Assembly: GCA_902577515.1 (NCBI GenBank)
Contig: CACGZJ010000001.1
Span: forward strand, 1 to 64,000
Source of the DNA: an uncultured Bacteroidota bacterium
Lineage (GTDB): Bacteria; Bacteroidota; Bacteroidia; Flavobacteriales; Flavobacteriaceae
Reading direction: 5' to 3'
DNA length: 64,000 bases
Under the pieces are notes generated by a model. It did no database searches. It was not told where the DNA came from and worked only from the letters and a program-made list of their open reading frames with translations. Positions 23,841 through 63,208 of the stretch are shown piece by piece (position 1 is the stretch's first letter; the number at the start of each line of letters is the position of its first letter). Made by a program: the position numbers and the translations under genes.

Positions 23841-24464
23841 TTATTTTTGAAAAGGGATATATATAATCTTTTTTGTTTGAAAGAATTCATAATTAAAATA
23901 TTCATTGATATCATAAATATTTTTTTTTTTGAAATCTTTTAACTCTTCATCTAGATCACCACCTTTCAATGAAATTATTCCATTTTTCATTTTATTTGAT
24001 GAATCATATCTAAAATTTTTATTAACTAGTTTATAAAATTTATCCATTCTAGTAACAGCCCTTGATAATATAAAGTCATAATGATCTAGATGATTTTCTA
24101 CTCTATCATTTATAGTATCTACGTTGTTTATTGATAACTCACTACATATTGATTTTACAACTTTTATTTTTTTTCCAATACTATCTATAAGTGTAAAATT
24201 TACTTTTGGAAAAAAAATTGCTAAAGGTATACCCGGCAGGCCTCCACCTGTTCCAACATCAAGTACTAATGTTGAATCTTTAAAGCTTATAATTTTTACA
24301 ATGGACAATGAATGAAGGATATGATTAATTTCTAGATTATCAATATCCTTCCTAGAAATTAAATTTACTTTTGAATTCCAGTATTTATATAATTGAACTA
24401 GTTTAGAGTACTTTTCTTTTTGTTCTTGAGTTAAGTTTGGAAAATATTTATCTATTTCAGTCAA
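23841..24464 (-). CDS. rsmG: 16S rRNA (guanine-N7)-methyltransferase RsmG
   Basis: RsmG (GidB) methylates G527 of 16S rRNA. The 207-residue protein has the N-terminal L-x-x-Y-x-x-W-N-S-K-V-N-L-I-S-R-K-D segment, the SAM motif D-V-G-T-G-G-G-L-P-G-I-P-L (about 69-81) and the S-R-A-V segment. It starts within the last codons of the upstream aminotransferase (4 bp overlap), so its expression is tied to the aromatic operon. Confidence 0.94.
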   Translation of the reverse strand: MTEIDKYFPNLTQEQKEKYSKLVQLYKYWNSKVNLISRKDIDNLEINHILHSLSIVKIISFKDSTLVLDVGTGGGLPGIPLAIFFPKVNFTLIDSIGKKIKVVKSICSELSINNVDTINDRVENHLDHYDFILSRAVTRMDKFYKLVNKNFRYDSSNKMKNGIISLKGGDLDEELKDFKKKNIYDINEYFNYEFFQTKKIIYIPFQK

Positions 24465-25642
24465 GATAATAAGTCTTTTATTCTTTTAATTGCTTCTTCA
24501 ATTTGTTCTCTTGAAGCTGAATAAGAAATTCTAATACAGTCAGGATAACCAAATGCATCCCCAGGAACAGTTGCTACATGAGCTTTTTCAAGAATAAGCA
24601 TTGATAAATCATTTGCATCATTAACAGTTACACCTTTAAACGTTTTACCAAATAATTCTGAGATATCTGGGAAAATATAAAATGCCCCCATAGGTGGTTC
24701 TTTTATTATAAAACCATTGATTTGTGTTACAAGATCGATTATAAAATCTCTTCTAATTTTAAATTCATCAACCATATATTGAATTTTTTCAGGTGACTCT
24801 TCTAATGCTTTAATTGTAGCTCTTTGAGCAATGCAATTTGCACCACTAGTTATTTGACCTTGCATTTTATTACAAGCTTTAGCTATTACTTTTGGTGCTC
24901 CCAAATAACCTATTCTCCATCCAGTCATTGCATAAGCTTTTGAGATCCCATTTACAGTAACTGTTCTATCATACATTCCGGGTAGAGTTGCAAAACTTAC
25001 AGATTTTACTCCATAATTTATATGCTCATAAATTTCATCTGATACAATAATTATATTTGGATACTTCGCAAGAACTTTTGAAAATTCAAGATATTCTTGT
25101 TCAGTAAAAACTGATCCACTAGGGTTATTAGGTGAGTTAAGCATTAACATTTTTGTTTTATCTGTTATTGCAGATTCAAGTTGTTGAGGAGTAATTTTAT
25201 AATTTGAGTCTTCATCTGGATTTATAAATACAGGTACTCCTTCGGCAAGTGCAACCATGGCACTGTAACTTACCCAATATGGTGTAGGGATTAAAACTTC
25301 ATCCCCTTTATTTATAAGAGACATACATACATTTGCAATTGATTGTTTCGCTCCTGTTGAAACAACTATTTGATCTACATCATAATCTAAGTTGTTATCT
25401 CTTTTGAATTTTTTACAAATTGATTTTTTCAAATCAAGATAACCATCAACCGGAGAATATTTATGATAATTATCATTAATAGCCTCAACTGCTGCTTCTT
25501 TTATATAATCTGGAATATTAAAGTCAGGCTCACCTGCACTTAGAGTTATTACATCTATTCCTTGGTTTTTTAAATCATGTGCTTTAGCTGTCATTGCAAC
25601 AGTCTGAGATATCGGCAAAGACTTTATTTTTTCTGATAACAT
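24461..25642 (-). CDS. Aspartate/prephenate-type aminotransferase (class I)
   Basis: This 393-residue PLP enzyme is of the aspartate aminotransferase Ib type. The N-terminus has V-I-T-L-S-A-G-E-P-D-F, then N-S-P-N-N-P-S-G, D-E-I-Y, and the PLP Lys235 in N-G-I-S-K-A-Y-A-M-T-G-W-R. The C-terminal R-I-S-Y-S is the substrate carboxylate site. Its place between aroF-chorismate mutase and rsmG in an operon for Phe and Tyr suggests it makes phenylalanine and tyrosine from their keto acids, or arogenate from prephenate. Sequence alone does not decide which. Confidence 0.88.
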   Translation of the reverse strand: MLSEKIKSLPISQTVAMTAKAHDLKNQGIDVITLSAGEPDFNIPDYIKEAAVEAINDNYHKYSPVDGYLDLKKSICKKFKRDNNLDYDVDQIVVSTGAKQSIANVCMSLINKGDEVLIPTPYWVSYSAMVALAEGVPVFINPDEDSNYKITPQQLESAITDKTKMLMLNSPNNPSGSVFTEQEYLEFSKVLAKYPNIIIVSDEIYEHINYGVKSVSFATLPGMYDRTVTVNGISKAYAMTGWRIGYLGAPKVIAKACNKMQGQITSGANCIAQRATIKALEESPEKIQYMVDEFKIRRDFIIDLVTQINGFIIKEPPMGAFYIFPDISELFGKTFKGVTVNDANDLSMLILEKAHVATVPGDAFGYPDCIRISYSASREQIEEAIKRIKDLLS

Positions 25643-25650
25643 TTTATAGA

Positions 25651-26733
25651 TTATTTATTTAATATTTTTTTTTGATTATTAATTGATTCTTGATGAATTG
25701 CTTTAAATACTCTTAAAATAAATTCTTCACTTAACCCTTGTTCCTCTCCATCTAAAATCATCTTTCCAAGAATTTCGTTCCATCTTTTATTTTGTAAAAT
25801 TGCTACATTATTATCAGACTTTAGCTGACCAATCTCTTTTGCAACTTCCATCCTTTTTCCTAATGTTGATAATAAATTCTGATCTGTAACATCAATTTGA
25901 GATCTAAGGTTATTAAGTTTGTTTATATAATCTTCTCCTTCTGAAGTCTTTTCTCTAATTGTTAAATCTTTCATTATTTCTATTAATTTTTTTGGGGTTA
26001 CTTGTTGAGCAGCATCGCTCCAAGCATTATCGGGGTCACAGTGTGTCTCAATCATTAAACCATCAAAATTTAAATCTAATGCAGATTGACTTAAATCAAA
26101 AATTAAGTCTCTTCTTCCAGCAATATGAGATGGATCACATATTAGAGGTAGGTCAGGAAAATTATTTTGAAGTTCAACTGCAATTTGCCATTCTGGATTA
26201 TTTCTGTATTTAGATTTGTCATAGGATGAGAATCCTCTATGTATAACTCCAATTTTGTTTATATCGGAAGAGTAAATTCTCTCAATACCTCCAAGCCAAA
26301 GAGCTAAATCAGGATTAACCGGATTCTTAACCAAAACAATTTTGTCAGTTCCTTTTAGTGCATCTGCAATTTCCTGAACAATAAATGGAGATACTGTAGA
26401 CCTAGCCCCAATCCATAATATATCAACATCATGTTTAAGTGCAAGATCTACATGAACTGAATTTGCAACTTCTGTTGCAATCATAAGTCCTGTTTCCTTT
26501 TTAACTTTTTCTAACCAGTTTAATCCAATTGCACCAACACCTTCAAACATTCCAGGTCTAGTTCTAGGTTTCCATATACCTGCCCTATATGCTGATACAT
26601 CTGAGTCTTTAAGGTCATGAGCAATTTTTAAAACCTGCTCTTCAGTTTCAGCACTACAAGGTCCAGCTATAACCAATGGGTGCCCCAGATTCATATTGTC
26701 TAACCAGCTTCTAAACTCTTTTTTATTTTCCAT
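25651..26733 (-). CDS. aroF: Bifunctional DAHP synthase / chorismate mutase (type II)
   Basis: This fusion catalyses the first shikimate step and the first step of the Phe/Tyr branch. Residues about 1-255 form a type I-beta (KDO8P-like) DAHP synthase: G-P-C-S-A-E near 24-29, K-P-R-T-R-P, K-N-P-V-N-P-D, D-P-S-H-I-A-G-R-R, and E-T-H-C-D-P. Residues about 265-350 are an AroQ chorismate mutase helix bundle (L-N-N-L-R-S-Q-I-D ... K-R-M-E-V-A-K-E-I-G). The fusion order is common in Bacteroidota. It lies 6 bp downstream of tyrA. Confidence 0.93.
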   Translation of the reverse strand: MENKKEFRSWLDNMNLGHPLVIAGPCSAETEEQVLKIAHDLKDSDVSAYRAGIWKPRTRPGMFEGVGAIGLNWLEKVKKETGLMIATEVANSVHVDLALKHDVDILWIGARSTVSPFIVQEIADALKGTDKIVLVKNPVNPDLALWLGGIERIYSSDINKIGVIHRGFSSYDKSKYRNNPEWQIAVELQNNFPDLPLICDPSHIAGRRDLIFDLSQSALDLNFDGLMIETHCDPDNAWSDAAQQVTPKKLIEIMKDLTIREKTSEGEDYINKLNNLRSQIDVTDQNLLSTLGKRMEVAKEIGQLKSDNNVAILQNKRWNEILGKMILDGEEQGLSEEFILRVFKAIHQESINNQKKILNK

Positions 26734-26739
26734 AATTAT

Positions 26740-27588
26740 TTATTTAATTCCGTTAAGTATTTCTTTAATACCATTTATTTTTTTCATTTCAGCACTTAAT
26801 TTTTCTTTATCACCATTTTCAATTAAAGTTTTAAAATTATTGATATTAGAGATATACTCATTAAGTGATTCTAAAATATTTTTTTTGTTCTCTACAAAAA
26901 TTGATGCCCATGTTTCAGGAGAGCTTTTTGCTAACCTTACAGTAGACTCAAATCCACTTCCAGCCATATCATAAATTGTATCTTGATCTTTTTCTTTGTT
27001 CATTACTGTCTTCCCTAACATAAAAGACGAAATATGAGACAGATGTGACACATATGCTATATGCTTATCATGTTCAATAGAGTCCATATTAATAATATTC
27101 ATATTCATTAAATCAAAAATTTTTAAAGCATCTGACAATAAATCTTGATCAGTTCTTTCTGTTTCACATAGAATTAAAACCTTATTATCAAAAAGATTAC
27201 TTATGGCAGCTGAAGGACCTGAAAACTCAGTACCAGCTATTGGATGGGCTGCAAGGAAATTTTTTCTATTAGAATGATCTTGTACTTTTTTACATATCTC
27301 ATACTTTGTTGAACCCAAGTCAACAACCAAAGTATTATTTGAGATTTTATTTAAAATTGACTCTATTTCACTTTTGATAGCATCTACAGGTATTGCAATA
27401 AAAATATATTTTAAGTTATTAATTGAGTTGATATCTAGTTTTTTATCTATTATACCTTTACTTAAAGAATAACTCATTGAATCCAAATCTTTATCAAGTC
27501 CATAGATAACTGTATTTTTATCAATTTTCTTAATCTTTAGGGCTATAGACCCTCCAATTAATCCCAAGCCAATTACTCCAACATTCAT
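26740..27588 (-). CDS. tyrA: Prephenate dehydrogenase
   Basis: TyrA makes 4-hydroxyphenylpyruvate, the tyrosine precursor, from prephenate and NAD+. The 282-residue protein has the dinucleotide motif G-L-G-L-I-G-G-S at 7-14, the V-D-L-G-S-T-K segment, and A-A-H-P-I-A-G-T-E-F-S-G-P, which holds the catalytic His. There is no fused chorismate mutase or ACT domain; the mutase is on AroF. It overlaps pheA by 4 bp. Confidence 0.93.
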   Translation of the reverse strand: MNVGVIGLGLIGGSIALKIKKIDKNTVIYGLDKDLDSMSYSLSKGIIDKKLDINSINNLKYIFIAIPVDAIKSEIESILNKISNNTLVVDLGSTKYEICKKVQDHSNRKNFLAAHPIAGTEFSGPSAAISNLFDNKVLILCETERTDQDLLSDALKIFDLMNMNIINMDSIEHDKHIAYVSHLSHISSFMLGKTVMNKEKDQDTIYDMAGSGFESTVRLAKSSPETWASIFVENKKNILESLNEYISNINNFKTLIENGDKEKLSAEMKKINGIKEILNGIK

Positions 27589-28394
27589 AATTCTTTAATT
27601 TTATATTCACCTAAAACTTTAAATTCTTGAGCTATTATCTCAATAATTTTTTTTGCTTTATTGTAATTATCTACAGAGTTAAAAGTAATATCAACAAAAA
27701 AAGCGTATTTACCCGGGGTTTGTATTACTGGTAAAGATTGAATCTTAGTAAGATTTAGACTACAATCACTCATCATATTTAAAACTGAAGCTAAACTCCC
27801 TCTTTTATGATCAAGAATAAATTTTAATGCAGCTTTATTGAATTCATCATTCGTTTTCTTTTTTTCAAGAATCACAAATCTTGTCTTGTTATTTTTGATA
27901 GTCTGGATTGACTCGTAAAGAATTTCTAAATTATATATTTCTGAAGCATCTTTACTTGCAATGGCACCAACACCTAGCATTTCTTCATCTTTGATTTTTT
28001 TTGCAAATAAGGCTGTATCCTCGCTCTCAATTAATTTAATGTGAGGATAATTATTGAAAAATTTTGAACATTGAAGTAAAGCCATTGGGTGAGATTGTAC
28101 CTCATAGATTTGATCAATTTTTTGCCCAGCCAGACACATTAAATTATGATTTATATTTAAATAATGTTCTCCTGTTATATATAAATTATACTCATCAATT
28201 AGTGCATAATTAGGAAGTATTGATCCAGCAATTGAATTTTCAATTGCCATGACACCAAAGTCAGATTCTTTTTTATCAATTGATTTAGCTAGATTTTCAA
28301 AGGTTGAACATTCTAGTAATTCAAAAGATTTAAAATACTCATTTGCCACCATATGGTGGAAAGAACCTTTAATTCCCTGTATTGACACTTTCAT
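27585..28394 (-). CDS. pheA: Prephenate dehydratase
   Basis: PheA converts prephenate to phenylpyruvate. The 269-residue stand-alone enzyme has the catalytic K-T-R-F segment near residue 168, the A-I-E-N-S-I-A-G-S motif and a C-terminal ACT domain (about 185-269). That domain has the region around S-L-P-V, as in feedback-inhibited enzymes. It is the first structural gene of the operon. The U-tract of an intrinsic terminator ends two bases before its ATG, so expression depends on readthrough of the attenuator described separately. Its only SD-like bases (AGGA) lie in the 3' arm of that hairpin. Confidence 0.94.
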   Translation of the reverse strand: MKVSIQGIKGSFHHMVANEYFKSFELLECSTFENLAKSIDKKESDFGVMAIENSIAGSILPNYALIDEYNLYITGEHYLNINHNLMCLAGQKIDQIYEVQSHPMALLQCSKFFNNYPHIKLIESEDTALFAKKIKDEEMLGVGAIASKDASEIYNLEILYESIQTIKNNKTRFVILEKKKTNDEFNKAALKFILDHKRGSLASVLNMMSDCSLNLTKIQSLPVIQTPGKYAFFVDITFNSVDNYNKAKKIIEIIAQEFKVLGEYKIKEL

Positions 28395-28396
28395 AT

Positions 28397-28424
28397 AAAA
28401 AAAAAGTCCTGATTTGACAGGACT
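28397..28424 (-). terminator. Attenuator terminator in front of pheA
   Basis: On the minus strand, AGTCCTG (28424-28418), a six-base loop, then CAGGACT (28411-28405) form a perfect 7-bp stem. It is followed by an unbroken U-run of nine, counting the last stem base. The pheA ATG follows two bases later. A terminator directly before the first gene of an operon, and behind a promoter and leader peptide, has the layout of an attenuator. Confidence 0.85.
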
Positions 28425-28459
28425 ATTATATTTTAATTCAATTATACATAATTATCCTG
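28418..28459 (-). promoter_or_regulatory. Predicted antiterminator stem of the Phe/Tyr attenuator
   Basis: Leader bases 28459-28447 (starting CAGGAT, across the leader stop codon) can pair with 28430-28418, the bases up to and including five of the seven in the terminator 5' arm. I count 12 pairs of 13, with one A-A mismatch and two G-U pairs, and a 16-nt loop. This pairing excludes the terminator. A third pairing, ATTATAC (28489-28483, over the leader Tyr codons) with GTATAAT (28447-28441), would compete with the antiterminator. This gives the three mutually exclusive states expected of ribosome-mediated attenuation. Structures were paired by hand, without energies. Confidence 0.7.
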
Positions 28460-28511
28460 CCTTCTGATGAGAGAAGTAATATGTATAATAAAAATTAAAA
28501 TTTTGTTTCAT
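28452..28511 (-). CDS. Phe/Tyr-rich leader peptide of the pheA-tyrA-aroF operon
   Basis: A 19-codon ORF, too short for routine gene calling, reads MKQNFNFYYTYYFSHQKAG and stops with TAA. Seven of nine consecutive residues (positions 5-13) are Phe or Tyr: three Phe and four Tyr in all. It begins 8 bases after a consensus -7 box and ends 28 bp before the attenuator hairpin. Its stop codon falls within the 5' arm of the predicted antiterminator. A ribosome finishing the peptide would therefore cover that arm and allow termination, while one stalled on Phe or Tyr codons would leave it free. This resembles E. coli pheL in logic, but senses both products of the operon. Confidence 0.82.
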   Translation of the reverse strand: MKQNFNFYYTYYFSHQKAG

Positions 28512-28518
28512 TACTTAA

Positions 28519-28549
28519 CAAAAGTATAATAGGTATTTAAAATATCAAA
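28519..28549 (-). promoter_or_regulatory. Promoter of the aromatic amino acid operon (TTTG-N19-TACTTTTG)
   Basis: TTTG at 28549-28546, 19 nt, then TACTTTTG at 28526-28519, both full matches to the Bacteroidota consensus. It begins only 10 bp past the osmC stop. The transcript should start within a few bases of the leader-peptide ATG at 28511. Confidence 0.75.
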
Positions 28550-28558
28550 CTTTTTAGA

Positions 28559-28987
28559 CTATTTTTTAATTAGCTCTCCATTAAGATAAATTGAGTGCTC
28601 TATCAAAGTTGATTTCTCAAGATTTTTTGAAACGGAACAATATTTATCAAAACTTAGCGATGCTGCACGAATTATTTTATCACCTGGAATTTCTCCCTCA
28701 ATCCAAAGTTTTACATGAATCCTCTTATATGGTCTACCAGGTTCTGATTCTCTCTCACCCTCGACTTCCATTTTATATGATTTAGGATCTAATTTTTGTT
28801 TTTCTAAAATAGAAATTATATCTATACTGCTGCAGCCTGCAACTCCCATCAGTAGAAGCTCCATTGGGCTAGCTCCTTGAACTTGATAGTCTGGTGAGTA
28901 TTTTCTATCTAAATGAACTTTATGTCCATTTTCATTTGATAATTCAAATAGGTATTTGTCGTTAACTCTATCTAAGTAAATTGCCAT
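28559..28987 (-). CDS. OsmC/Ohr family protein
   Basis: This 142-residue protein belongs to the OsmC family of thiol peroxidase-like proteins. The two conserved cysteines are at 52 (V-A-G-C-S-S-I-D) and 117 (D-K-Y-C-S-V), and the spacing is that of the YhfA/OsmC branch. Its substrate is not known; organic hydroperoxide reduction is the family default. It is the last gene of the met operon, abutting metX, and its product may be linked to sulfur metabolism, although that is an inference from position only. Confidence 0.85.
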   Translation of the reverse strand: MAIYLDRVNDKYLFELSNENGHKVHLDRKYSPDYQVQGASPMELLLMGVAGCSSIDIISILEKQKLDPKSYKMEVEGERESEPGRPYKRIHVKLWIEGEIPGDKIIRAASLSFDKYCSVSKNLEKSTLIEHSIYLNGELIKK

Positions 28988-29953: not shown

Positions 29954-31225
29954 TTATATAGACTTAATTGCCTCTTTTAGATCATTAATTAGATCATTAG
30001 GGTCTTCAAGTCCTATACTTAGTCTTACTAGATCTGATGTAACCCCTGTGGATTTTTGCTGATCCTCATTTAATTGTTGATGAGTTGTGCTTGAAGGATG
30101 AATTATTAGAGATTTAGAGTCACCAAAGTTTGCAAGCAAAGAAAATATTTTGGTACTATCTGTCAATTTTTTTGCAGACTCAAACCCTCCTTTTAATCCA
30201 AAAGTAACAATTCCACTTTGACCTCCCTTTAAATATTTCTTTGAAAGATCATAATATTTAGATGATTTAAGACCTGGATAATTTACCCATGCTACCTCAT
30301 CTTGAGTTTCAAGCCACTCTGCAACTTTCAATGCATTCTCAGAGTGTTTCTTAATTCTTACAGATAGGGTTTCTAATCCTTGAATTGTTTGAAAACAATT
30401 AAACGGGCTTGGAGCACTACCAAGATCTCTTAGTCCCTCAATTCTAACTTTTGCAATAAATGCTGCAGGTCCAAGTGCATCATGATATATAAGACCATGA
30501 TATCCTGCAGATGGTTCAGTGAATTCATTAAATAGTCCATTACTCCAGTCAAATTTACCAGCATCAATTATAATACCTCCTATTGAAGTTCCATTTCCCG
30601 TTATGTATTTTGTAGTAGAGTGAATTACAATATCTGCACCATAATCAATTGGTTTTAATAAATATGGAGTAGCTACAGTGTTGTCAACTATTAGTGGGAG
30701 TTTTGCTTTTTTGGCAATTTTGGATATAGATTCAACATCTAATATATCCAGTTTAGGATTACCAATACTTTCAATATAGACAGCCCTAGTTTTATCATTT
30801 ATTGCTTGAGAAAAATTATCTGGATCATTAGGGTCTACAAATGTTGAAGTTATCCCATACCTTGGAAGTGTAACGTTTAATAAATTATAAGTTCCTCCAT
30901 ATAGACTGTTTGAAGCTACAATGTGATCCCCAGTTTTCAATAATGTTAAAAGGGTTGTAGCTAAAGCAGCAGATCCTGATGATGTAGCAACTGCAGCAAT
31001 TCCTCCCTCCAACGAAGCTAGTCTTTGTTCAAGAATATCAGCTGTAGGGTTATTAAGTCTTGTATATATGTATCCAGGTTCTGCAAGTGAAAATAAATTA
31101 GCAGCATGGTCAGTGTCATCAAATACATAAGATGTAGTTTGATAGATCGGAACAGCTCTGGTCCCCTCTGTCTTTGTTGTGTTATGACCTGCATGTAATG
31201 CAAGTGTTTGATCATTTTGATTCAT
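29954..31225 (-). CDS. metY: O-acetylhomoserine sulfhydrylase MetY
   Basis: This Cys/Met-metabolism PLP enzyme makes homocysteine directly from O-acetylhomoserine and sulfide. The 423-residue length, the L-A-L-H-A-G N-terminus, S-S-G-S-A-A (PLP phosphate site), V-D-N-T-V-A-T-P-Y and the PLP lysine motif H-S-T-T-K-Y-I-T-G-N-G are those of MetY and not of the shorter MetB or MetC. It overlaps metK by 4 bp. With MetX and MetK it forms a homoserine-to-SAM route. Confidence 0.92.
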   Translation of the reverse strand: MNQNDQTLALHAGHNTTKTEGTRAVPIYQTTSYVFDDTDHAANLFSLAEPGYIYTRLNNPTADILEQRLASLEGGIAAVATSSGSAALATTLLTLLKTGDHIVASNSLYGGTYNLLNVTLPRYGITSTFVDPNDPDNFSQAINDKTRAVYIESIGNPKLDILDVESISKIAKKAKLPLIVDNTVATPYLLKPIDYGADIVIHSTTKYITGNGTSIGGIIIDAGKFDWSNGLFNEFTEPSAGYHGLIYHDALGPAAFIAKVRIEGLRDLGSAPSPFNCFQTIQGLETLSVRIKKHSENALKVAEWLETQDEVAWVNYPGLKSSKYYDLSKKYLKGGQSGIVTFGLKGGFESAKKLTDSTKIFSLLANFGDSKSLIIHPSSTTHQQLNEDQQKSTGVTSDLVRLSIGLEDPNDLINDLKEAIKSI

Positions 31226-32475
31226 AGTTTTAGTGATTTAATTATTTGTTCAACATATTCAAGCTTCTCCCAAGGGAAAAGCTCAACCTCAATTTTTTTA
31301 ACTCCAGAATATTTTGAGTTAAAAGTTTTGATTTTTTTTTCAGATTTTCTACCCATATGTCCATATGATGCAGTTTCAAGATATATAGGGTCTCTCAACT
31401 TAAATCTTGATTCTATCGAGTGAGGTTTTAAGTCAAATATCTCTTTGACAATTTTCGATAGTTTTGAATCTGAAATATTTAATTTTGACTTACCACATGT
31501 ATTTACATTAAGTGATACCGGCTCAGCAACTCCAATAGCATATCCTACTTGAATTAAAATCTCATCAGACACACCTGCTTTAACTAAATTCTTAGATATA
31601 TGTCTTGCTGCATATGCTGCACTTCTGTCAACTTTACTTGGATCTTTTCCACTAAAGGCTCCTCCACCATGCGCTCCTCTTCCTCCATAAGTGTCAATAA
31701 TTATTTTTCGTCCAGTTAAGCCTGTATCTCCGTGTGGTCCACCGATAACAAATTTTCCAGTCGGATTAACATGGTATTTAATACTATCATTAAATAATTT
31801 TTGAATGCTTTCAGGATAACTTTCCTTTACGATAGGAATTAATACCTCAATGATATCTTGTCTAATTTTACCCAGCATTTTTTTATCATCACTATCAAAC
31901 TCATCATGTTGAGTTGAGATAACAATTGTATCTATTCTTAACGGATTATCATTTTCATCATATTCAATAGTAACTTGAGACTTTGAATCAGGTCTTAAAT
32001 ATGGAATTGTTTTTGATCTTCTCATACGTGATAGTTCGAAAAGTAATTTATTAGCAATATCAAGGGTAAGAGGAATGCTTTCTTGAGTTTCATTACACGC
32101 ATAACCAAACATTATTCCTTGATCTCCTGCACCCTGATCTTGCTTTGTATCTCTTTCTACTCCTCTTAAAATATCTTCTGACTGCTCATGAATCAATGAC
32201 ATAACTGCACAAGATTCTCCTGAAAACTTGTACAAATCATTATTATACCCTATATCCTTAATTATTTCTCTAGCAACATTCTGCACATCAATATATGTAG
32301 AGCTAGTAACCTCTCCAGATAAAACTACTTGTCCAGTTGTAACTAATGTTTCACAGGCAACTTTTGAATTTGGATCAAAAGCTAAAAAGTTATCTAAGAT
32401 TCCATCACTAATCTGATCAGAGACCTTATCAGGATGTCCTTCACTCACAGATTCAGACGTAAATAAATACGACAT
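31222..32475 (-). CDS. metK: S-adenosylmethionine synthase
   Basis: MetK makes SAM from methionine and ATP. The 417-residue protein has the family motifs E-G-H-P-D-K near the N-terminus, G-A-G-D-Q-G-I-M-F-G-Y and G-G-G-A-F-S-G-K-D-P-x-K-V-D-R-S. It is the first gene behind the SAM-II riboswitch, so the cell's SAM level should feed back on its own synthesis and on metY, metX and osmC. Confidence 0.97.
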   Translation of the reverse strand: MSYLFTSESVSEGHPDKVSDQISDGILDNFLAFDPNSKVACETLVTTGQVVLSGEVTSSTYIDVQNVAREIIKDIGYNNDLYKFSGESCAVMSLIHEQSEDILRGVERDTKQDQGAGDQGIMFGYACNETQESIPLTLDIANKLLFELSRMRRSKTIPYLRPDSKSQVTIEYDENDNPLRIDTIVISTQHDEFDSDDKKMLGKIRQDIIEVLIPIVKESYPESIQKLFNDSIKYHVNPTGKFVIGGPHGDTGLTGRKIIIDTYGGRGAHGGGAFSGKDPSKVDRSAAYAARHISKNLVKAGVSDEILIQVGYAIGVAEPVSLNVNTCGKSKLNISDSKLSKIVKEIFDLKPHSIESRFKLRDPIYLETASYGHMGRKSEKKIKTFNSKYSGVKKIEVELFPWEKLEYVEQIIKSLKL

Positions 32476-32506: not shown

Positions 32507-32526
32507 TGATTGCTTGTAAAAGAATT
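32507..32526 (-). promoter_or_regulatory. Candidate expression platform of the SAM-II riboswitch
   Basis: GCAATCA (32513-32507) is fully complementary to TGATTGC in the aptamer loop (32561-32555). The overlapping bases AGCAAT (32514-32509) can also pair with ATTGCT at the aptamer's 3' part. Either pairing is incompatible with the SAM-bound pseudoknot. A U-rich run follows. Which alternative represses expression is not clear from sequence. Confidence 0.4.
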
Positions 32527-32577
32527 ACTGCTTTAGCAATTTTTTTAAGAGGTTGCAATCAGTCAAATCCTTCCTCT
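32527..32577 (-). ncRNA. SAM-II riboswitch aptamer upstream of metK
   Basis: The minus strand carries AGAGG (32577-32573) and CCTCT (32552-32548) as the P1 stem. The loop contains GGATTTGACTG and ATTGCAA, and the downstream piece is TTGCTAAAGCAGT. This matches the SAM-II (SAM_alpha) pattern: stem, GAUUUAA..., UUGCAA before the 3' arm, then GCUAAA in the pseudoknot strand. The pseudoknot pairing is preserved as ACTG (32562-32559) with CAGT (32530-32527). The position at the predicted transcript 5' end, before a metK-metY-metX operon, fits the function of repression by SAM. Confidence 0.85.
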
Positions 32578-32585
32578 GTTTCCAA

Positions 32586-62466: not shown

Positions 62467-62496
62467 AAAAAAAAACCCTCCATTAATGGAGGGTTT
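62467..62496 (-). terminator. Rho-independent terminator of the secreted-protein gene
   Basis: The palindrome AAACCCTCCATTAATGGAGGGTTT (62473-62496, split here as a 9-bp stem of ACCCTCCAT/ATGGAGGGT with a short loop) is followed on the minus strand by nine T residues. It lies 23 bp after the stop of the 62519-63208 gene and isolates it from glpK. It is one of only two intrinsic terminators I could see in the window. Confidence 0.85.
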
Positions 62497-62518
62497 AATT
62501 TTTTTAGTATAATTTACA

Positions 62519-63208
62519 TTAATTCCACGTTCCTAAAACAGTGGAGATTGTTGAACCTCTATACTGAGAAATAGGAGTAATTATAGAATTAAATTTTGCA
62601 AATGCTTCCTGCTCTTTTTCATTATCAGGGAAAAAAGTAAACTGAGATTTTGCATCAGAATGAGTTGTGTAAATATAATGAGTCTCATTTCTTTCACCTC
62701 CAGTATATTGACCAAGAGATATGTAGTTGCCATTTGAAAAGCCTTCATTTAATTCAATGAATGCTTGTGCAAACGTTCCAGGATCATCTACATAAAAAGA
62801 CCACATTTGTTCAGAATAAGAACCGTTTTCTCCTTGAATTCTAACTAAAGATTGTCCCTGTTTCATTGCAACAATTTTAGCTAAGCCTTCAAGATTTTCA
62901 ACATATGCTTCATATGCTTCTCCAGATCTAAGTTCTCTCAACTGTGAAAGACCATCAGGGGTTCCAGCAAAATTTAAGAAATGAGTAGCTTTAGTCCACT
63001 CAGATTTATTTTGAATTGCATTTAATGTTAATGATGAACCCTCTGGAAAATCTATACTTGAATAAAAGTCATCTACAAGTTTATAGACTAAAGATGCTTT
63101 TCCAGGAGTTACTTCTAAGGCAACTTCTGTCCAATATATTTGTTGTTGAGCAAAAGCAGTAGAAATAGTTAATAGAAATGCACTAGATAATAAAATTAAT
63201 TTTTTCAT
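62519..63208 (-). CDS. Secreted protein of unknown function
   Basis: The 229-residue product has a clear signal peptide (cleavage after A-F-A, about residue 20). The mature part is rich in acidic and aromatic residues and has no cysteine, no catalytic motif and no membrane helix. Two halves (about 25-115 and 118-228) could be related ferredoxin-like/ABM-type beta-alpha units (each has a W, a T/Y-rich strand and an E-A-Y/F-x-x-F/L segment), but the similarity is weak. It is a single gene with its own strong terminator, which suggests independent and perhaps high expression. Confidence 0.75.
   Translation of the reverse strand: MKKLILLSSAFLLTISTAFAQQQIYWTEVALEVTPGKASLVYKLVDDFYSSIDFPEGSSLTLNAIQNKSEWTKATHFLNFAGTPDGLSQLRELRSGEAYEAYVENLEGLAKIVAMKQGQSLVRIQGENGSYSEQMWSFYVDDPGTFAQAFIELNEGFSNGNYISLGQYTGGERNETHYIYTTHSDAKSQFTFFPDNEKEQEAFAKFNSIITPISQYRGSTISTVLGTWN

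Follow-up and report, generated by a model that had tools for sequence, protein, structure and literature searches.

How does a flavobacterium that makes phenylalanine (Phe) and tyrosine (Tyr) from a single operon match that operon to the supply of both products? We addressed this question in a 64,000-nucleotide (nt) stretch of DNA from an uncultured member of the Flavobacteriaceae (positions 1 to 64,000, forward strand, of contig CACGZJ010000001.1 in GenBank assembly GCA_902577515.1), referred to throughout as the window. On its minus strand, a short leader lies between an OsmC-like gene (28559-28987) and pheA, which encodes prephenate dehydratase (27585-28394; PF00800, 186 bits). An earlier reading of this gap from the letters alone (the sequence-only reading) had proposed a ribosome-mediated attenuator that senses Phe and Tyr, and our analysis supports that interpretation. 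On the strength of sequence comparison and folding models, we estimate a probability of about 0.9 that the leader is a transcription attenuator of the trpL/pheL type, through which a shortage of either amino acid would open the operon. The parts of this device, their conservation, the co-variation of its pairing arms, and its spacing come directly out of sequence and computation.

Layout of the leader upstream of pheA

All features of the leader lie on the minus strand. Its predicted promoter (28519-28549) consists of TTTG (28549-28546), which we take to be the -33 box, followed by a spacer of exactly 19 nt and the -7 box TACTTTTG (28526-28519). For the -7 box, a study of Flavobacterium psychrophilum gives the consensus TAnnTTTG (PMC9723704). 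The leader ATG, at 28511, stands 7 nt after the -7 box and opens a 19-codon open reading frame (ORF; 28452-28511) that would encode MKQNFNFYYTYYFSHQKAG and ends with the stop codon TAA at 28454-28452. Three Phe and four Tyr residues fill seven of the nine positions from residue 5 to residue 13 (F N F Y Y T Y Y F; 28473-28499), and these are the putative control codons.

Two mutually exclusive structures follow. The antiterminator strand (about 28446-28461) overlaps the leader stop codon, and its partner (about 28416-28431) holds the 5' arm of the terminator; the duplex of the two has a predicted energy of -18.1 kcal/mol. The intrinsic terminator hairpin (28405-28424) has a perfect 7-bp stem with a 6-nt loop and runs into a U tract of nine T (28397-28405), the first of which also closes the stem. 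The pheA ATG (28394) lies two bases past the T run, and the hairpin ends 10 nt before it. The RNA of the leader as a whole folds better than chance (z -4.9; none of 200 shuffles was as good).

The sequence-only reading had recognized a consensus promoter, a 19-codon ORF with three Phe and four Tyr in nine residues, an antiterminator that takes in the leader stop codon, and a perfect 7-bp terminator with a nine-U tail ending two bases before pheA, and every one of these parts stands, the promoter match both in the window and in 23 of 23 loci of the genus to which the window belongs. It had also proposed a 7-bp pairing over the Tyr codons that could block the antiterminator. A weakly supported, possible protector hairpin of this kind (28430-28501) does appear in the minimum-free-energy fold of the window's leader without a ribosome, but it is absent from the consensus structure that RNAalifold derives from the 23 genus sequences, and we dropped the idea of a conserved protector helix over the Phe/Tyr codons.

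These parts suggest the following course of events. RNA polymerase would start just before the leader ORF, with a ribosome trailing it through the leader. With both charged tRNA-Phe and charged tRNA-Tyr plentiful, the ribosome would run to the stop codon and cover the antiterminator strand; the terminator would then form, and transcription would stop before pheA. If either tRNA ran short, the ribosome would halt within the Phe/Tyr block, whose last codon begins 14 nt before the antiterminator strand, leaving that strand to pair with the 5' arm of the terminator and allowing the whole Phe/Tyr operon to be transcribed. Since the antiterminator would be freed by a stall anywhere in the block, the device would work as an OR gate for a shortage of Phe or of Tyr, and tryptophan (Trp) is perhaps also sensed where the block holds Trp codons. 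Translation of the ORF, stalling within it, and the resulting change in readthrough are steps that we infer from this arrangement.

Conservation of the leader and co-variation of its arms

We searched the regions upstream of pheA in related genomes with a detector that requires an ATG-started ORF with at least six aromatic residues in nine, followed by a terminator-like hairpin. In its first version the detector covered 400 nt upstream and allowed loops of 3-9 nt; loops were widened to 3-21 nt after two class loci with visible leaders had been missed, and later scans covered 500, 700, 1000, or 1500 nt. Chance does not account for such a combination: none of 952 dinucleotide shuffles of the upstream regions passed the detector, the ORF part alone passing in 8 of the 952, and with the widened loops none of 1112 shuffles (500 nt) and none of 320 (1000 nt) passed.

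PheA was found in 23 of 25 genomes of the genus, and all 23 loci carry both the leader and the terminator. They also share an identical TTTG-N19-TACTTTTG match 6-9 nt before the leader ATG. The sequence-only reading had named the loss of the short ORF or of the alternative pairings among close relatives as grounds for its refutation. Neither loss is seen: all 23 genus loci have the ORF, and the pairing of antiterminator and terminator, as detailed below, persists in the family and outside it although the sequences change. The PheA matches in three of these loci (L049, L050, and L051) are each reported with one internal stop codon.

The device extends well past the genus. In other genera of the family, 91 of 92 loci (75 of 76 plus 16 of 16) have an F/Y-rich leader and a terminator, in a sample drawn mostly from the better-scoring PheA matches among those listed rather than at random. 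Named loci from GTDB gave 80 of 80, 78 of them within 500 nt and two (L226 and L283) further upstream; these are the best 80 of at least 587 relatives, and some may belong to the same species as other loci counted here. Their titles include Flavobacterium, Algibacter, Tenacibaculum, Maribacter, Winogradskyella, Kordia, and Leeuwenhoekiella, with one titled Rhizobium and one Bacteroidia, and from them we take the class to be Bacteroidia. In L226, from an uncultured Gelidibacter, the 417 nt between terminator and pheA hold an insertion in which a GAGTTCGAAGAACGAAATAAAATG-like repeat occurs in direct copies; in L283 (Kordia aestuariivivens), 393 nt separate the two.

Across other orders of the class, we examined 27 of the 45 genomes that had a PheA match, and 23 of these 27 loci carry the device. 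All 23 have a well-matching PheA (E 6e-56 or better), whereas four class genomes with a divergent PheA have no device before pheA, which suggests that the device follows one type of aromatic operon and not every member of the class. In 19 of the positives (L332-L335 among them) it stands directly before pheA, and in the other four (L295-L298; four of the six genomes examined from family f8) it heads a longer operon, 3.6-4 kb upstream of pheA, and is out of reach of the 400-nt search, where these loci (as L081-L084) show nothing. Between leader and pheA, L295 and L298 have genes for a 3-deoxy-D-arabino-heptulosonate 7-phosphate (DAHP) synthase/chorismate mutase, aroB, and aroA; an aminotransferase gene and tyrA come after pheA. 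Among phylum-level loci outside the class, 5 of 21 have the device (L100 is counted here); one of the five, G679, emerged from a longer upstream look at 17 loci that had been negative.

We therefore examined what the leaders have in common, using sets of 116 and 188 distinct leaders in which identical leader-terminator regions had been merged. The peptides vary widely between loci (e.g., MTTTVYYTYFNNWFYFFFSKRNEALYV, MTRTYFWNSFYFYFFFKRGTGLF, and MKLFNTYYFGYFYYFSKSRG), yet every one of the 116 contains both Phe and Tyr, with means of 5.1 Phe and 3.7 Tyr. Where an F/Y site changes, the change is mostly conservative: among nearest-neighbor pairs we counted 5 synonymous changes, 10 exchanges between F and Y, and 4 changes to another residue (15 of 19 conservative), and among all pairs at least 70% alike, 59, 32, and 37, respectively (91 of 128). 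F/Y codons make up 39% of codons in frame across the 188 leaders, against 12% and 17% in the other two frames, a comparison that is partly circular. Trp occurs in 38 of the 116 leaders, in several clades (e.g., L006, L024, L089, L091, L093, and L095), within or near the aromatic block, and 36 of 38 Trp codons are placed where a stall would free the antiterminator. To judge from codon placement, sensing may thus extend in some lineages to Trp and hence to all three aromatic amino acids.

A -7 box lies no more than 45 nt before the leader in 92 of the 116 loci, compared with about 8% of shuffles. The median gap from box to ATG in those 92 loci is 16 nt, so a near-leaderless mRNA is proposed for the genus only. 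With its ATG 6-9 nt past the box, the genus may initiate leader translation differently from the Escherichia coli paradigm.

The pairing arms provide a second line of evidence. Over the 116 loci, the antiterminator with its own partner has a mean energy of -15.5 kcal/mol, compared with -10.3 kcal/mol with the partners of other loci; the own partner beats the swapped mean in 112 of 116 loci, and in 70 of 116 it outdoes every one of 50 shuffles of the leader arm. The 188 loci have 34 different terminator cores, and at least 6 of the 7 core pairs can form in 177 of them (55% of swapped controls), all 7 in 59 (12% of swapped controls). In 87 nearest pairs with different cores, own pairing was better in 74, worse in 11, and tied in 2; several of these pairs come from the same two clades and are not independent, and no p-value is drawn from them. 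Leaders of the four longer-operon loci and of G679 pair as well, at -14.7 to -20.6 kcal/mol. By these sequence comparisons, terminator arm and antiterminator change together between lineages.

Within the genus, 89.9% of alignment cells in the antiterminator are paired across the 23 sequences, compared with 27-49% when the arms are slid against each other. Antiterminators are weaker in L040 (-9.9 kcal/mol), L032 (-11.6), L036 and L041 (-11.7 each), and L003 (-12.5). For the antiterminator strand, some pairing with the upstream leader is predicted in all 23 members (9-15 of 19 nt, a count made with no shuffle control). Just 5' of the antiterminator strand there is also a 4-bp CTTC/GAAG helix (about 28461-28476 of the window, minus strand), which overlaps the last Phe codon; three of its pairs are kept in 23 of 23 genus sequences and the fourth in 21 (RNAalifold, A2 columns 49-64). 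This helix may tune the switch.

We also scanned the draft genome (G000, 78% complete) with the antiterminator as an added requirement. The scan covered 1,160,649 of 1,161,278 bases as separate stretches, so that sites across joints are missed, and it returned the pheA leader as the only F/Y/W match. The same generic scan for other residues gave only two implausible matches; it thus found no other plausible leader-peptide attenuator in the draft genome, and this small genome may have kept only this one.

Ribosome position and competing explanations

The proposed switch requires that a ribosome in the aromatic block and one at the stop codon leave different RNA available for pairing. We modeled this by masking the transcript from its start through the 14th base, counting from the first base of the A-site codon. 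With the full transcript of the window, the antiterminator is the best fold with the A site at codons 5-13 only, and the terminator is the best fold elsewhere, including at the stop codon. Across loci the full-length result was weak, and a truncated version, in which the transcript is cut before the 3' arm of the terminator, was run after it. In this version, the antiterminator forms at 1017 of 1060 aromatic codons in the 116 loci and at 89 of 623 non-aromatic codons past the last aromatic one, and with the ribosome at the stop codon it is blocked in 111 of 116. The corresponding counts are 1024, 163, and 109 with 11 bases and 965, 48, and 111 with 17 bases. In 114 of 116 loci, the end of the aromatic block lies -1 to +2 codons from the switch point, and, as measured from the stop codon, the distances of the last aromatic codon and of the switch point are correlated (r 0.94), although this block-end measure was defined after the data had been seen, and related sequences are not independent tests.

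That last limit is one of several points that weigh against attenuation as we propose it. In the truncated model, 832 of all 1544 non-aromatic codons also leave the antiterminator free; because non-aromatic codons before and inside the block do so, the model marks only the 3' edge of the block and not its 5' edge. Moreover, 99 of 116 loci form the antiterminator in this model without any ribosome, and the genus consensus structure contains no protector helix. With the full transcript at equilibrium, the antiterminator wins at only 256 of 1060 aromatic codons (24%), compared with 111 of 1544 others (7%); in only 55 of 116 loci does it win at one or more aromatic codons, and the terminator is preferred at every codon in 8 of the 23 genus loci (L003, L032, L036, L037, L040, L041, L049, and L050). 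The contrast is weak because most terminators are stronger than the antiterminators; an advantage in timing has to be assumed for the antiterminator. The genus alignment adds little on co-variation: the terminator stem is invariant in 23 of 23 sequences, and only two pairs have changed on both sides, a number reached by 99 of 500 shuffles. Because a high aromatic content was itself a criterion in choosing the leaders, their aromatic richness and frame bias are partly circular. Of the 38 leader-bearing loci whose flanks are long, ten have no tyrA match downstream, even though Tyr is still present in their leaders.

The distribution also has gaps. The one family locus that lacks the device (L110) has none in its 379 nt upstream, and 16 of 21 phylum-level loci lack it with longer upstream stretches included. 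Two families had no device either before pheA or before the DAHP synthase gene: f10 of the class (0 of 3) and f2, which belongs to the same order as the window (0 of 8; L342 of this sample has 558 nt upstream, and the DAHP synthase gene of G669 is in fragments). Even so, we lean slightly toward a single ancient attenuator that has traveled with an orthologous aromatic operon, is present in no fewer than eight of the class's families as well as in certain deeper lineages of the phylum, and acts through one peptide as an OR gate for a shortage of Phe or Tyr or, in certain clades, of Trp. By the same narrowly favored account, the device governs the aromatic supply line and stays at the head of the operon when DAHP synthase, aroB, and aroA precede pheA. 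Our confidence in this broader history is lowered because one family of the same order and one further family of the class are without the device.

Some aromatic-rich frames lie in other places. In G722 (L360), whose pheA is divergent and flanked by two DAHP synthase/chorismate mutase genes, one of these genes has a leader, MKTLFAAYFYFFYFIEKVR, and a terminator directly before it. In family f2 (L350-L355 and L359; by eye, seven of eight genomes), a different F/Y/W-rich frame, ending in ...SYYRNFRTYYRFYWYC or a variant and in some genomes lacking an ATG detected by the scan, is found about 250-300 nt before the DAHP synthase/chorismate mutase gene, preceded by a hairpin with a run rich in U and followed by a conserved segment (CCAAAAAATA(A)CAGGA ... 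ACGGCATTTTTTGAAAAGAATTATAAA-like). It may be another aromatic leader, of other architecture.

Could the same conserved parts serve a different mechanism? In nascent-peptide arrest of the TnaC kind, the F/Y-rich peptide itself would stall the ribosome when free aromatic amino acids are sensed and not when charged tRNA is lacking, and the C-terminal tails behind the block do keep clade-specific motifs (KAG, RTGL, RNEALYV, and RDCAMVI). The antiterminator strand, however, is what encodes these tails, and as it varies so do they; RNA pairing thus explains the motifs. The exchange of F and Y within the block is hardly what a specific arrest peptide would allow, and induction by excess product makes little sense because the operon is biosynthetic. 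We consider arrest very improbable.

The same small likelihood attaches to translational control, in which the hairpin would hide the start region of pheA and the leader would govern pheA translation instead of termination. In the window the hairpin does end as close as 10 nt to the pheA ATG. But the distance from hairpin to pheA ranges from 8 to 229 nt over the 188 loci (median 21), reaches the 417 and 393 nt of L226 and L283, and in four class loci is replaced by a leader 3.6-4 kb away, with DAHP synthase as the first gene in the two examined. A T-rich tract, moreover, follows the stem in every counted locus, as the detector requires.

Less likely again is a T-box, a riboswitch, or a protein-binding attenuator beside which the small ORF would be incidental. 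Such devices serve other amino-acid operons, and a SAM-II riboswitch is found only 4 kb away. No T-box or riboswitch, however, is among the nine matches at E values up to 10 in this stretch, 11 relatives gave no match at the gathering threshold, and what is conserved here are codons and switching arms. Finally, the idea that the hairpin merely terminates the OsmC-like gene and that the ORF is a chance product of T-rich DNA is the least credible of all: the region is very AT-rich, and all 23 genus loci do have an OsmC-like gene upstream in the same orientation, but the shuffles, the single F/Y/W match in the draft genome, the pattern of codon changes, the co-variation of the arms, and the promoter match between upstream gene and ORF all speak against it, as does the finding of an OsmC match within about 700 nt upstream in just one (L114) of the 60 loci L081-L140, many of which have the device.

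The operon and its known counterparts

Downstream of the leader, still on the minus strand, pheA is followed by tyrA (prephenate dehydrogenase, 26740-27588; PF02153 and PF20463), a gene for DAHP synthase fused to chorismate mutase (25651-26733; PF00793 and PF01817), and a class I/II aminotransferase gene, probably aromatic/aspartate (24461-25642; PF00155); Pfam also identifies rsmG among the downstream genes. Within the genus, 22 of 23 loci have tyrA after pheA, and 21 have the DAHP synthase/chorismate mutase gene as well; one contig ends early, and in L051 a piece of tyrA is inverted at the contig end. The terminal aminotransferase is visible in the window only, the other genus loci being too short. 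In many relatives a homologue of it sits between pheA and tyrA, and 26 of the 38 leader-bearing loci with long flanks have the order pheA, aminotransferase, tyrA, DAHP synthase/chorismate mutase. Leader signal and operon product correspond overall, though not for every gene in every stretch.

The window also holds another RNA-level amino-acid switch, the SAM-II (long loop) riboswitch at 32523-32582 (minus strand, 79.9 bits), upstream of a metK-like gene (31222-32475). Further genes on that strand resemble methionine-synthesis genes. Two different switches of this kind thus lie about 4 kb apart.

The nearest classical counterpart is E. coli pheL (RF01859, Phe_leader), which likewise has a short ORF rich in codons for the product, an antiterminator, an intrinsic terminator, and pheA downstream. 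The pheL peptide senses Phe only. Unlike it, the leader described here combines Tyr with Phe before an operon that makes both, and it has a Bacteroidota promoter, with the ATG 6-9 nt past the -7 box in the genus. Membership in the Phe_leader sequence family is not indicated: the end-to-end match at the window's leader reaches 30.4 bits (E 0.0019) against a cut-off of 55 bits, no match exceeds the cut-off in 149 genomes of the family, and Rfam gives no match at threshold for the leader region in the window. We also discarded the sub-threshold match as support, because 141 of the 149 family genomes give similar or better ones, on either strand, and matches below the threshold are frequent in AT-rich genomes; the window's contig has another, of 35 bits, at 62467-62585.

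Leaders that sense more than one product of a branched pathway are known from thrL (Thr/Ile) and ilvL. These share multi-amino-acid sensing with the present leader and differ from it in amino acids and phylum. In Bacteroidetes, the Bacteroid-trp motif (RF01692), a trp element by name, is listed as a cis-regulatory RNA (PMC2864571). It is not among the matches at E values up to 10 in the window, nor was it found in the draft genome.

The sequence-only reading knew of no characterized example in Bacteroidota. Our literature search likewise found no experimental one, but the phylum is not without forerunners. For Bacteroides thetaiotaomicron, Table 7 of a 2005 TyrA paper lists, from Merino's website, a predicted attenuator before pheA>hisHb>aroAIb-aroQ>tyrA (PMC1173090); the operon genes and the phylum are the same, and the entry is given without a leader peptide, an amino-acid specificity, or conservation. 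This very likely is the same device. A transcriptome of the same species reports short ORFs reminiscent of leader peptides, with no mention of pheA (PMC7366714). In F. psychrophilum, the 2021 study already cited describes clues to leader-peptide attenuation upstream of amino-acid operons, and upstream of pheA, in this species and in other genera of Flavobacteriaceae, a structured 5' element with no Rfam hit (PMC9723704). The main text says nothing of a peptide, of dual Phe/Tyr codons, of pairings, or of conservation outside the family, which the supplement may describe; the element is probably the same one in a relative. A search of the literature that covered neither subscription papers nor that supplement found no description of a Phe/Tyr leader peptide or of dual sensing. 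We therefore regard the leader as a well-supported case of a classic mechanism, in which the dual-sensing peptide and its reach are the new part.

These results offer a testable account of how Phe and Tyr synthesis may be controlled in many Bacteroidota, in which a single peptide that senses both amino acids suits an operon with two end products. They supply a Phe/Tyr(/Trp) leader peptide that annotation can recognize, and, because the aromatic block ends where the modeled ribosome footprint meets the antiterminator, the natural variants form a test set for the placement of control codons. Flavobacteria are described as lacking Shine-Dalgarno sequences (PMC9723704); if the proposed mechanism is true, translation and transcription are coupled in the trpL manner even in a phylum that does not base initiation on Shine-Dalgarno sequences.

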